Assembly (NCBI RefSeq): GCF_009193175.1
Contig: NZ_VUKE01000015.1
Span: forward strand, 1-64,000
Reading direction: 5' to 3'
Source of the DNA: Georgenia ruanii
Lineage (GTDB): Bacteria; Actinomycetota; Actinomycetes; Actinomycetales; Actinomycetaceae
DNA: 64,000 nt
The number at the start of each line of letters is the position of its first letter. Position 1 is the stretch's first letter. The translations under genes were made by a program, and so were the position numbers. Shown piece by piece: positions 48,086 to 50,466 of this stretch. Under the pieces are notes generated by a model that saw nothing but the letters and a program-made list of their open reading frames with translations, was not told the origin of the DNA and did no database searches.

Positions 48086-48592
48086 ATGGACATCGCACCC
48101 GTGCCGGCCGGTCAGTCCGTTCGTGCGGCTCAGGAGCTGGCCGCGCTGCTGCAGGCCTGCGTGGCCGACGGCGCGAGCCTGGGCTTCCTCGACCCGACCA
48201 CCGCCGAGGAGGCACGGGTGTTCTGGCACGGGGCGCTGACCGAGCCCGGGGCGATCACCTGGGTGGTGCGCGACGACGACGGGCGCCTGCTGGGCAGCGT
48301 GCGCCTGGTCCCGGCCCCGATGCCCAACGCCGGCCACCGCGCCGACGTCGCCAAGCTCATGGTCCACCCCGCCGCTCGCGGCCGCGGGGTCGCGGCAGCC
48401 CTGATGGCGGCCCTGGAGGACACCGCCCGCGCCACGGGCCGGACGCTGCTCGTGCTCGACACCGAGACCGGCAGCCCCGCCGAGGCGATCTACCGGCGCT
48501 GGGGCTGGGAGCCTGCGGGCGGCATCGCGGACTACGCGGCCGACCCCGGTGGCACGCTCAAGCCCACTACGATCATGACGAAGCGGCTCTGA
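48086..48592 (+). CDS. GNAT-family N-acetyltransferase
   Basis: 168 aa from ATG 48086. GNAT core: WVVRDDDGRLLGSVRLVPAP, ADVAKLMVHPAARGRGVAAAL with the acetyl-CoA loop R-G-R-G-V-A-A, and LLVLDTETGSPAEAIYRRWG with the usual C-terminal Tyr and WGWEPAG. Similar proteins acetylate amino-group substrates or antibiotics. Substrate unknown. It is followed by the DUF429-RelA/SpoT gene 38 bp downstream. Confidence 0.87.
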   Translation: MDIAPVPAGQSVRAAQELAALLQACVADGASLGFLDPTTAEEARVFWHGALTEPGAITWVVRDDDGRLLGSVRLVPAPMPNAGHRADVAKLMVHPAARGRGVAAALMAALEDTARATGRTLLVLDTETGSPAEAIYRRWGWEPAGGIADYAADPGGTLKPTTIMTKRL

Positions 48593-48630: not shown

Positions 48631-50466
48631 ATGTACTTCGTCGGCATCGACCTCGCCTGGGGCGAGCGCCAGCCCAGCGGCCTCGCCGTCCTCGACGACG
48701 ACGGCACGCTGGTGCACCTCTCCGCGGAGAGCACCGACGAGACCATCGTCGCCGCGCTCGCGCCGTACCGCGACGAACCGGTGCTGGTGGCGATCGACGC
48801 GCCGCTGGTGGTCACGAACGCGACCGGCAACCGGCCGTGCGAGGCGGCGCTGAACCGGGACTTCGCCCGGTTCGACGCCGGCGCCCACCCGGCGAACACC
48901 GGCAAGCCGGAGTTCGCCGGCACGCCCCGCGGGGCACGGGTGGCCAAGGCGCTGGGCCTCGACATCAACCCCGCCTCGGGGCGCGCCCGGCGCGGCATCG
49001 AGGTCTACCCGCACCCGGCCACGGTGGCGCTGTTCGGCCTGGGCCGGACGCTGAAGTACAAGCAGAAGCCCGGCCGGACCGTGGCCGAGCTGCGGGAGGC
49101 GATGCTGGCGCTGGTGGCCCACATCGAGGGCCTGGCCGGCGCCGAGACGGCGATCGTGGTCACCGAGCAGGCCGCCTGGCGCGACCTCGTCGGTGCGGTC
49201 CGGGCCGCAAAGCGCAAGAGCGAGCTGCGTCGCGCCGAGGACCAGATCGACGCGGTCCTGTGCGCCTACGTGGCGCGCTTCGCCGTCGCCCACCCCGACC
49301 GCACGACGACGTACGGCGACCTCGCGACCGGCTACATCGTCACCCCGACGCTCCCGCCCGGCCTCGTGCCCACGCCGCGCACCGTCCATCCCTCAACCGG
49401 GGAGCCGGTGCAAGCGGAGCCGGCCATGGCACCCGCGGCGGCGGAGCCGGCCATGGCACCCGCGGCGGAGCCGGCGACGGCCGAGCCCGTCCGGGAGGCC
49501 ACCCGGCGCGCGGTGCAGGCCTACGCCAATCAGCGGGCGGCGCTCCTCCAGGCCACCGAGCGCTACGTCGCCCTCGTCACCGGCCTGCTCGACGACGCCG
49601 GCATCAACTACCACGTGGTCGAGGGACGGACGAAGACCGTCGCGTCGTTCGCGGGCAAGGCCGCCCGCACGGTGGACGGGCACCCCGTCTACACGGACCC
49701 GCTGCACCAGATCACCGACCAGATCGGCGTGCGGGTGATCACGTACGTCCTCAGCGACGTCCAGGCGGTGGTGGAGGTGCTCGCCGACCAGCTCACGGTG
49801 CTCGAGGACCGCGACATGGCCCTGGAGACGGCGCAGGCCGGGCGGTTCGGCTACTCCAGCCGGCACGTCCTCGTCGCGACCCGCGGCGACGGCCAGAGCG
49901 CCGAGCTGCGGGACCGGATCGCCTCGGTGCAGGTGCGCACGGTGCTCCAGCACGCCTGGGCCGAGTTCGAGCACGACATCCGCTACAAGGGCACGGTCCC
50001 CGAGGCGTACGCCCCCGACCTCGACCGGCGCTTCACGCTGGCCGCCGGGCTCCTCGAGCTCGCCGACCGGGAGTTCTCCACCATCCGCGACCGGCTGCAG
50101 GAGAGCATGACGGACCACGAGCCGGAGTCCGACGAGGCCGACCCACGGATCAGCGCCCAGGACCTGGCCGCCTTCCTGGCGGGACGGTTCACCGACGCCG
50201 GCTGGTCGCGCACCGACCACTACGAGTGGGTCTCGGGGCTCCTGCTCGAGCTCGGCGTCACCTCGCTGCAGGAGCTCGGCGAGCTGCTGCGAGCGGTCGA
50301 CAGCGCGTCCATCACCGAGCGGATGGGGTACCGATACCCGCCCGGCGCCGTCCGCCGGCTCGACGACGCACTGCTCTCGATCTTCGGCGAGCGCTACCTC
50401 CGGCTGCACGGCAACGCCCGCCGGGTCGAGGCGCTGCGCGCCCGGCTGGAGAAGCTCCGCGGCTGA
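48631..50466 (+). CDS. DUF429 (RNase H-fold) fused to RelA/SpoT synthetase-like domain
   Basis: 611 aa from ATG 48631. Residues 1-235 are a DUF429 domain: YFVGIDLAWGERQPSGLAVL, VLVAIDAPLVV, RRGIEVYPHPATVALFG and AEDQIDAVLCAYVARFA, with acidic residues Asp7, Asp56, Glu124 and Asp208 in RNase H-like positions. An Ala/Pro repeat linker (EPAMAPAA) spans 260-285. Residues 290-490 are a RelA/SpoT domain: GRTKTVASF (Arg333, Lys335, Ser339), ITDQIGVRV (Asp363, Arg368), GRFGYSSRH and VQVRTVLQHAWAEFEHDIRYK. The Glu of the usual E-x-Q-x-R motif is Ser432. A helical C-terminal domain ends the protein. Predicted roles: nucleic-acid nuclease plus alarmone or other nucleotide-handling activity; both are inferred. 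Confidence 0.85.
   Translation: MYFVGIDLAWGERQPSGLAVLDDDGTLVHLSAESTDETIVAALAPYRDEPVLVAIDAPLVVTNATGNRPCEAALNRDFARFDAGAHPANTGKPEFAGTPRGARVAKALGLDINPASGRARRGIEVYPHPATVALFGLGRTLKYKQKPGRTVAELREAMLALVAHIEGLAGAETAIVVTEQAAWRDLVGAVRAAKRKSELRRAEDQIDAVLCAYVARFAVAHPDRTTTYGDLATGYIVTPTLPPGLVPTPRTVHPSTGEPVQAEPAMAPAAAEPAMAPAAEPATAEPVREATRRAVQAYANQRAALLQATERYVALVTGLLDDAGINYHVVEGRTKTVASFAGKAARTVDGHPVYTDPLHQITDQIGVRVITYVLSDVQAVVEVLADQLTVLEDRDMALETAQAGRFGYSSRHVLVATRGDGQSAELRDRIASVQVRTVLQHAWAEFEHDIRYKGTVPEAYAPDLDRRFTLAAGLLELADREFSTIRDRLQESMTDHEPESDEADPRISAQDLAAFLAGRFTDAGWSRTDHYEWVSGLLLELGVTSLQELGELLRAVDSASITERMGYRYPPGAVRRLDDALLSIFGERYLRLHGNARRVEALRARLEKLRG

Follow-up and report, generated by a model that had tools for sequence, protein, structure and literature searches.

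The gene at positions 48,631 to 50,466 of the window (the whole 64,000-nucleotide stretch of Georgenia ruanii DNA that was analysed) encodes a protein that, by sequence, is orthologous to RelZ (MS_RHII-RSD) of the actRel subgroup, and it belongs to a large actinobacterial clade in which nearly all members have lost the canonical catalytic glutamate of the synthetase domain while the rest of the site is kept and a characterised member is reported to be active. The fusion of DUF429 to a RelA/SpoT domain is itself already known, having been in print since 2011, and the protein is of the known RelZ kind; what makes it worth testing is the clade-wide loss of the glutamate. We found no earlier mention of this loss in the literature searched, in which RelZ is covered through reviews and citing papers. 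The gene and its parts are as follows.

48631..50466, + strand: relZ-like coding sequence, DUF429-RelA/SpoT fusion of 611 amino acids, stop included (open reading frame with ATG at 48631)
48643..49314, + strand: DUF429 domain, residues 5-228 (Pfam PF04250, E 3e-27)
49393..49485, + strand: Ala/Pro/Glu repeat linker, residues ~255-285 (homologue gaps, low pLDDT)
49480..50106, + strand: small-alarmone-synthetase domain with flanking helices, residues ~284-492 (Pfam core 49624-49992)
49717..49719, + strand: codon of Asp363, the one canonical Mg-binding carboxylate that is left (counterpart of D107 in RelP and D264 in RelSeq)
49924..49926, + strand: codon TCG of Ser432, where canonical enzymes have their catalytic/Mg-binding Glu (E174 in RelP, E323 in RelSeq)
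50128..50463, + strand: helical C-terminal domain, residues 500-611, without a Pfam name

The layout described in the earlier note, a DUF429 domain joined by an Ala/Pro linker to a RelA/SpoT domain and a helical C-terminus, is present in full according to Pfam and the predicted structure, and so are the DUF429 motifs GIDLAWGER, VAIDAPL, EVYPHP and DQIDAV. The profile match to DUF429 and that to RelA_SpoT (residues 332-454, E 3.6e-16) both exceed the curated cut-offs and follow each other on a single polypeptide in the order of RelZ. When the best 80 of 450 relatives were aligned with the window protein, leaving out two DUF429-only open reading frames (in L060 and L077), all 81 sequences aligned from residue 1-3 to residue 599-611. 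The linker varies in length, with 77-78 of the 81 gapped at residues 259-267, and is modelled with low confidence (block pLDDT of 55, 43 and 40 for residues 251-280). The synthetase part matches RelQ and RelP structures in Foldseek (best E 1.6e-8). The C-terminal helical domain is found too in copies without DUF429. A tblastn search beside DUF429-only copies in 10 loci gave no significant synthetase remnants (best E 2.1).

Near-full-length homologues of the same architecture, among the best 80 of 450 relatives, occur in Georgenia, Nocardioides, Ornithinimicrobium, Mycobacterium and other genera, and the Georgenia protein shares whole-length homology and a common clade with the mycobacterial fusions (support 95/97 in a 111-row tree computed without column 432). 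The earlier note took the fusion for a convergent design that uses a different nuclease from that of Mycobacterium smegmatis RelZ. That idea has to be given up: the domain called RNase HII in RelZ (MSMEG_5849) corresponds to Pfam DUF429/COG4328 in the papers that describe it (PMC4429107, PMC4300193, PMC3153485, PMC5566576), and because of this identity we assign the Georgenia protein to RelZ; both have an N-terminal DUF429 domain and a C-terminal RelA/SpoT domain in one chain and are of the same family. The mycobacterial fusions, which stand in for RelZ in our comparisons, align with the Georgenia copy over its full length, but are 52-60% identical to it (in a set of 44 rows that represent 43 genomes, since L139 and L151 are one gene) and have a shorter linker; the function proposed for the Georgenia copy is that of RelZ.

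The RNase H-like nature claimed for DUF429 in the earlier note agrees with its published placement in the RuvC/YqgF clade. Acidic residues D7, E71, E124, D204 and D207 of this domain are invariant in the 81 sequences of the alignment described above, and D56 is present in 80. Structure prediction gave a mixed answer: the AF2 model of the domain is confident (mean pLDDT 94.9, pTM 0.93), but Foldseek returned no match at E 0.001 or better. The weak neighbours include RuvC/YqgF-like proteins (Ydc2, phage RuvC, TEFM, TerL, Spt6) mixed with actin-like/ROK kinases and GspL. RelZ resembles RNase HII (rnhB) in that reviews report an RNase HII-type activity for it; it differs in its domain, as none of 45 DUF429 rows matched the Pfam family RNase_HII at a limit of E 10, with HMMER filters dropping most matches above 0.1.

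In the synthetase domain, Ser432 stands in place of the catalytic Glu, as the earlier note had stated. It aligns with the Glu of the E-x-Q-x-R-T motif in solved synthetases, in a register that is not in doubt because the adjoining Q434, R436 and T437 are invariant in 81/81. Sequencing error is unlikely, since the 88%-identical protein of Georgenia thermotolerans (L002) also has Ser and Glu occurs in none of the 81 homologues (44 Gln, 30 Ser, 6 Ala, 1 Thr); a quirk of a single copy is rejected on the same grounds. The possibility raised beforehand, that homologues keep Glu and this copy is the odd one, turned out to be the reverse of what is found, as 127 of 128 distinct RelZ-clade synthetase domains lack Glu (71 Ser, 49 Gln, 6 Ala, 1 Thr), the one exception being L098. 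These residue counts come from 219 aligned rows, 19 of which were left uncounted, being identical sequences or, for L226 and L228, repeats of L096 and L097, and the set of 128 excludes 73 further mycobacterial genes. Ser is therefore not fixed, and the clade-wide feature, as read from the alignment, is the absence of Glu and not the conservation of Ser. A conserved Ser acting as functional substitute is accordingly rejected for the clade, where the position varies; in Mycobacterium it is nonetheless Ser in 122/122 genomes carrying the fusion, and M. smegmatis RelZ very probably has Ser as well because these genomes are uniform. Fusion is not the cause of the loss, since the seven clade members examined that have no DUF429 in the open reading frame all have Ser too. 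On the tree, Glu versus non-Glu takes 2 changes at this position and all states together take 11.

Outside the clade, 78 actinobacterial RelA/SpoT domains were examined and Glu is kept in 75 of them. This is a non-random set of 29 distinct sequences from the 30 best long-Rel loci, 25 RelS-like sequences (two earlier loci contributing to these) and others chosen by hand; it leaves out 25 long-Rel rows that had no loci, including the long Rel of the Georgenia genome in question. Six second-copy long RSHs, added to this set owing to their low scores, argue against a clean contrast: three have Asp and three Glu at the site, and the equivalents of K335 and K343 are both changed in all six, some to Arg. 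RelS of Corynebacterium glutamicum, another actRel enzyme, resembles the Georgenia synthetase in being extended with a C-terminal region and in having relatives that can be aligned with it. Unlike RelZ, it lacks DUF429, and its relatives keep Glu (25/25 distinct RelS-like sequences, from which the residue in RelS is deduced); RelS is reported to be Mg2+-dependent, with slight, unspecified deviations from the ExQIRT motif (PMC5566576), and to be most efficient with GTP. RelP and RelQ have the fold and the ATP-site residues in common with the Georgenia synthetase, but have no DUF429, have a shorter C-terminus and, in RelP, keep both Mg ligands, Asp107 and Glu174; in the Georgenia protein the former is kept as Asp363 and the latter is replaced by Ser432.

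The remainder of the site is nearly invariant. By alignment and spacing, RelP residues R78, K80, S84, K88, R91, R112 and H190, whose roles in the ATP site are described in PMC5794853, are all matched, by R333, K335, S339, K343, R346, R368 and H448. Across the RelZ clade R333, K335, S339, K343, D363, R368, Y408 and H448 are present in 128/128 domains and R346 in 123/128. Just upstream of the GYxSxH motif, D393, G397, R405 and R411 are near-invariant (each 126-127/128) and set the clade apart from RelS-like, RelP-like and long Rel sequences; the Georgenia protein departs at one of them, with Ala397. These residues would belong to the G-loop. Sequence comparison within the clade did not reveal any acidic residue newly conserved at a place where it would obviously compensate for the Glu. 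Both domains are under purifying selection, with dN/dS of 0.13-0.40 for the synthetase domain (six pairs) and 0.25-0.33 for DUF429, and a decaying synthetase domain is without support from these values.

On balance we favour the reading that the protein is a chromosomal stress enzyme, the Georgenia RelZ, in which a hybrid/R-loop nuclease is joined to a synthetase using one-carboxylate, metal-relaxed chemistry. By analogy with RelZ, which reviews describe as cleaving R-loops, the DUF429 half would be a metal-dependent nuclease of the RNase H/RuvC fold, with RNA:DNA hybrids and R-loops as its substrates; the link to stress and R-loops made in the earlier note is consistent with these descriptions. 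The synthetase half would bind ATP in the canonical site and, again by analogy, pyrophosphorylate a guanine nucleotide at its 3'-OH, with GMP probably the best acceptor. According to reviews, RelZ makes pGpp, ppGpp and pppGpp with the preference GMP > GDP > GTP, and its Km is given as ~1 mM for GDP and GTP. In the mechanism proposed for canonical enzymes, the Glu binds Mg2+ and takes up the proton from the 3'-OH. Asp363 is the only one left of the two canonical Mg ligands, and for that reason metal use and proton abstraction would have to differ from those of canonical synthetases. It is from such comparisons that we infer the activity, substrate and product of the Georgenia protein as well as its one-carboxylate chemistry.

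The wider proposal, to which we give an even chance, is that evolution has produced in the RelZ clade a metal-relaxed pyrophosphokinase, which transfers pyrophosphate from ATP to the 3' position of a nucleotide with one of the two canonical carboxylates. The Glu, regarded as essential for catalysis in those RelA/SpoT enzymes in which it has been tested, would be dispensable here. If so, this chemistry would explain why the pyrophosphokinase of RelZ is cited as Mg2+-independent (PMC5566576), and perhaps its preference for GMP. A clade that lacks the Glu and has a characterised member reported to be active implies either an alternative mechanism that has gone unrecognised or a misreading of the characterised enzyme.

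The main rival reading is that the synthetase half is a pseudo-enzyme that binds ATP and a guanine nucleotide or alarmone and uses this binding to sense the stringent response and to control either the oligomer or the nuclease half. The synthesis reported for RelZ would then be weak or have another cause. We regard this as rather unlikely, but it draws on several observations. SpoT E319 is presumably the same residue as RelSeq E323. The E323Q change is reported to eliminate detectable synthetase activity in RelSeq and E319Q to leave SpoT severely deficient, and Glu-to-Gln changes at such sites have been used to make synthetase-deficient enzymes. The drift of position 432 among Gln, Ser, Ala and Thr is what would be expected if no particular group were needed there, the ligand-binding residues are nearly invariant, and ssRNA and pppGpp are reported as inhibitors of RelZ synthesis. 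Against it, reviews and citing papers credit RelZ with pGpp and ppGpp synthesis at a stated Km, Asp363, which corresponds to a Mg ligand of RelP, is universal in the clade, and the seven members without DUF429 in the open reading frame retain the rest of the domain with no nuclease half in the chain to regulate. Three further observations speak against an active synthetase: the 49 clade members with Gln carry the same change as inactive RelSeq E323Q, the six with Ala have a residue able to bind neither metal nor proton, and Rv1366 of M. tuberculosis, called an orthologue in one review, is reported to be inactive.

We think it improbable that the synthetase instead pyrophosphorylates something other than a free guanine nucleotide, such as tRNA, an adenine nucleotide or the 3' end of an RNA. 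Several features would fit such a change: the base proposed to act on the acceptor 3'-OH is gone, the putative G-loop has clade-specific residues, the reported preference for GMP is unusual, and CapRel occurs among the lower-ranked fold matches. Against it, Tyr408, the expected guanine-stacking tyrosine, is present in 128/128 domains and the reported products of RelZ are guanine alarmones. CapRel, 32nd among the Foldseek matches, and other toxSAS proteins share the RelA/SpoT synthetase fold but differ in accessory domain, and no antitoxin-like gene was recognised among the six neighbouring proteins checked, which are a GNAT acetyltransferase, a histidine kinase, an ABC permease (tested in part), an ABC ATPase, an HTH-cupin regulator and an arginase-family enzyme.

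A phage-defence protein, in line with the phage-response role suggested in the earlier note, is very improbable: the protein matches two profiles that PADLOC classes as candidates, PDC-S44 over residues 1-242 (E 1.9e-82) and PDC-S33 (E 1.6e-10), but among its neighbours only the ABC ATPase and the HTH regulator match PADLOC profiles, generic-looking ones, a crude comparison of 110 loci found no widely shared neighbour (the commonest cluster occurs in 20, in varying places), and 80% of the protein is covered in none of 16 matching phage records and none of 34 plasmid records. Neither a defence island nor carriage by phages or plasmids is thus supported, and by a hand count the fusion is present in 122 of 396 Mycobacterium genomes. 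The RelZ of genome G277 is only 67% identical to that of G532, and the RelZ proteins of G264, G532 and G277 all have Ser at the glutamate site.

The window encodes an orthologue of RelZ, the Mycobacterium smegmatis enzyme also called MS_RHII-RSD or MSMEG_5849. Profile searches bear out both domains that the earlier note had read from the sequence alone, DUF429 and an alarmone synthetase:

48631-50466, forward strand: relZ-like coding sequence, an open frame of 611 codons
Residues 5-228: DUF429 domain (Pfam, E 3e-27)
Residues 332-454: RelA_SpoT domain (Pfam, E 3.6e-16)

The AlphaFold2 model of the whole protein (58 rows; mean pLDDT 89.2, pTM 0.53) is of low confidence across the Ala/Pro/Glu linker and folds the C-terminal 110 residues mostly into helices, as the same note had proposed. 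Foldseek matches the synthetase part to RelQ/RelP structures (best E 1.6e-8), with CapRel, RelSeq and long Rel ranked lower, and NCBIfam returns only a YjbM-type GTP diphosphokinase model, below threshold (57.4 bits against a cut-off of 320). The genome has a single second RelA_SpoT match, a 780-codon open frame with a long-Rel-like score. Upstream, a GNAT acetyltransferase gene (48086-48592, forward strand like relZ) stops 38 bases short of the relZ start.

The protein had been contrasted with M. smegmatis RelZ as a convergent design built on a different nuclease. That contrast falls away: what is called the RNase HII domain in MSMEG_5849 is, according to PMC4429107 and PMC4300193, the former DUF429. 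The fusion was therefore already known, and the window protein is a further member of it. In other papers, actRel synthetases from M. gilvum, M. smegmatis and M. vanbaalenii are listed as carrying DUF429 (PMC3153485, 2011), DUF429 is noted together with RelA/SpoT in Actinobacteria and assigned to the RuvC and YqgF clade (PMC3985635), and the RelZ nuclease domain, as COG4328, is reported in Marmoricola too (PMC5566576). We kept the best 80 of 450 relatives from a genome scan; with the window protein, these 81 proteins align from residue 1-3 through 599-611.

Modeled alone (45 rows), DUF429 reaches a pLDDT of 94.9 and a pTM of 0.93. Foldseek finds nothing at E 0.001 with this model; the weak top matches are RuvC-like nucleases or their relatives (Ydc2, phage RuvC, TEFM, TerL, Spt6), together with actin-like/ROK kinases and GspL. 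The Pfam model RNase_HII gave no reported match to any of the 45 DUF429 rows, in a search where HMMER filters remove most matches above E 0.1, and the RNase H-like DUF460 matched five of them (best E 0.0011). Given this absence and the mixed fold neighbors, "RNase HII" is best taken, for RelZ, as a label of activity. The last helix of DUF429 carries the pair D204/D207, which presumably resembles the Asp pair of RuvC.

Position 432, the canonical catalytic and Mg-binding Glu site, is Ser in the window protein. Glu is absent from all 81 aligned proteins, although Ser itself is not conserved (Gln 44, Ser 30, Ala 6, Thr 1). Among 128 distinct RelZ-clade synthetase sequences the site holds Ser in 71, Gln in 49, Ala in 6, Thr in 1 and Glu in 1, so the window copy is not an exception among Glu-bearing homologs. 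Glu is present in every distinct control (25/25 RelS-like, 7/7 RelP-like, 29/29 long Rel, 11/11 other SAS). Six degenerate second long RSHs of some actinobacteria (L244-L249) have Glu in three and Asp in three; their ATP motif is altered in all six, with the ATP-binding lysines changed. Together, 75 of the 78 proteins examined outside the clade, a convenience sample, have Glu.

In a 111-row tree built without column 432, for which the program warned of long outgroup branches and an unsettled bootstrap, the RelZ clade has support of 95/97, with two changes between Glu and non-Glu and 11 among all states. The sole Glu-bearing member (L098, from genome G078) branches beside the mycobacterial clade (84/86); its Glu is a reversal or a relic. 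Clade members lacking DUF429 in the open frame also have Ser (7/7 examined), and the loss is therefore a trait of the synthetase lineage rather than of the fusion. All 122 listed Mycobacterium fusion genomes have Ser, from which M. smegmatis RelZ probably does too. The literature searched, primary RelZ papers excepted, yielded no report of a clade-wide Glu loss in a group with a characterized enzyme; given that exception, we claim no priority.

The rest of the site is intact. RelP contacts ATP/Mg through R78, K80, S84, K88, R91, D107, R112, E174 and H190, according to PMC5794853; by alignment with solved synthetases and by spacing, these correspond to R333, K335, S339, K343, R346, D363, R368, S432 and H448. 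In the RelZ clade R346 is kept in 123/128 and each of the others, position 432 aside, in 128/128, as is Tyr408, which equates by motif to RelSeq Y308 and is expected to stack on the guanine. A further 72 mycobacterial genes have the same ATP/Mg-site residues and Tyr408 in 72/72, except at 346 (68/72). Across six pairs, dN/dS spans 0.13-0.40 in the synthetase and 0.25-0.33 in DUF429. The synthetase domain is maintained under purifying selection; these values do not support a decaying domain.

We take SpoT E319 to be the same residue as the catalytic Glu, whose position is naturally Gln in 49 of the 128 clade members. This is odd, for RelSeq E323Q, like D264G, is reported to eliminate detectable synthetase activity, and Glu323 has been proposed both as a Mg2+ ligand and as the acceptor of the proton from the 3'-OH (PMC13299517); SpoT E319Q is described as severely synthetase-deficient (PMC6085430). 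Such mutants would suit the main rival reading, in which the synthetase half is a nucleotide-binding pseudo-synthetase; yet reviews credit M. smegmatis RelZ with synthesis of pGpp, ppGpp and pppGpp, in the order of preference GMP > GDP > GTP (PMC7591505, PMC10112252). In the accessible portion of PMC5566576, the MS_RHII-RSD pyrophosphokinase is cited as Mg2+-independent, whereas Corynebacterium glutamicum RelS was found Mg2+-dependent; the mechanisms are called apparently divergent, unspecified slight deviations from ExQIRT are noted for RelS, and no active-site residue is tied to the difference. The second Mg ligand, Glu, is kept by all 25 RelS-like proteins but lost in 127/128 of the RelZ clade. 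Glu loss may track Mg2+-independence, a correlation between two characterized enzymes whose residues are taken from relatives. Most likely, one chain joins an R-loop/hybrid nuclease to a one-carboxylate, metal-relaxed alarmone synthetase; by analogy with RelZ, the DUF429 half would cleave R-loops or hybrids, and the synthetase half would make pGpp/ppGpp, under replication or transcription stress.

Matches at E 1e-20 occur in 37 of 197 genomes sampled from the class (read from the table: 12 fusions, 7 with the synthetase half only, 11 with DUF429 only, 7 distant synthetases). Of 396 Mycobacterium genomes, 318 have a match. Among the Mycobacterium matches listed, at least 122 genomes match in both halves (hand count; G543 and G257 partial), and the next 28 match in the N-terminal DUF429 part only. 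These 28, against the 7 of 37 synthetase-only genomes in the class sample, suggest that the halves were lost, or joined, independently. DUF429-only copies keep D7, D56, E71, E124, D204 and D207 (10/10 examined, of 11 found). That conserved half-proteins of both kinds occur naturally sits uneasily with the inactivity reported for separated RelZ domains (PMC7591505).

None of the 16 phage and none of the 34 plasmid records with a match reaches 80% coverage of the window protein, and the gene seems to be carried on the chromosome and passed on vertically. In a crude comparison of 110 loci, local synteny was common to the mycobacterial loci; the commonest neighbor cluster occurs in 20, its position and orientation varying. 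Some Mycobacterium genomes carry a DUF429-only gene in tandem beside the fusion (L039, L060, L077; the tandem loci L122 and L123 probably show the L039 and L077 genes a second time). At three loci among the best 80 of 450 relatives (L015, L019, L053), the gene next to relZ, downstream and convergent on the opposite strand, encodes a RelP-like small alarmone synthetase that has the Glu.
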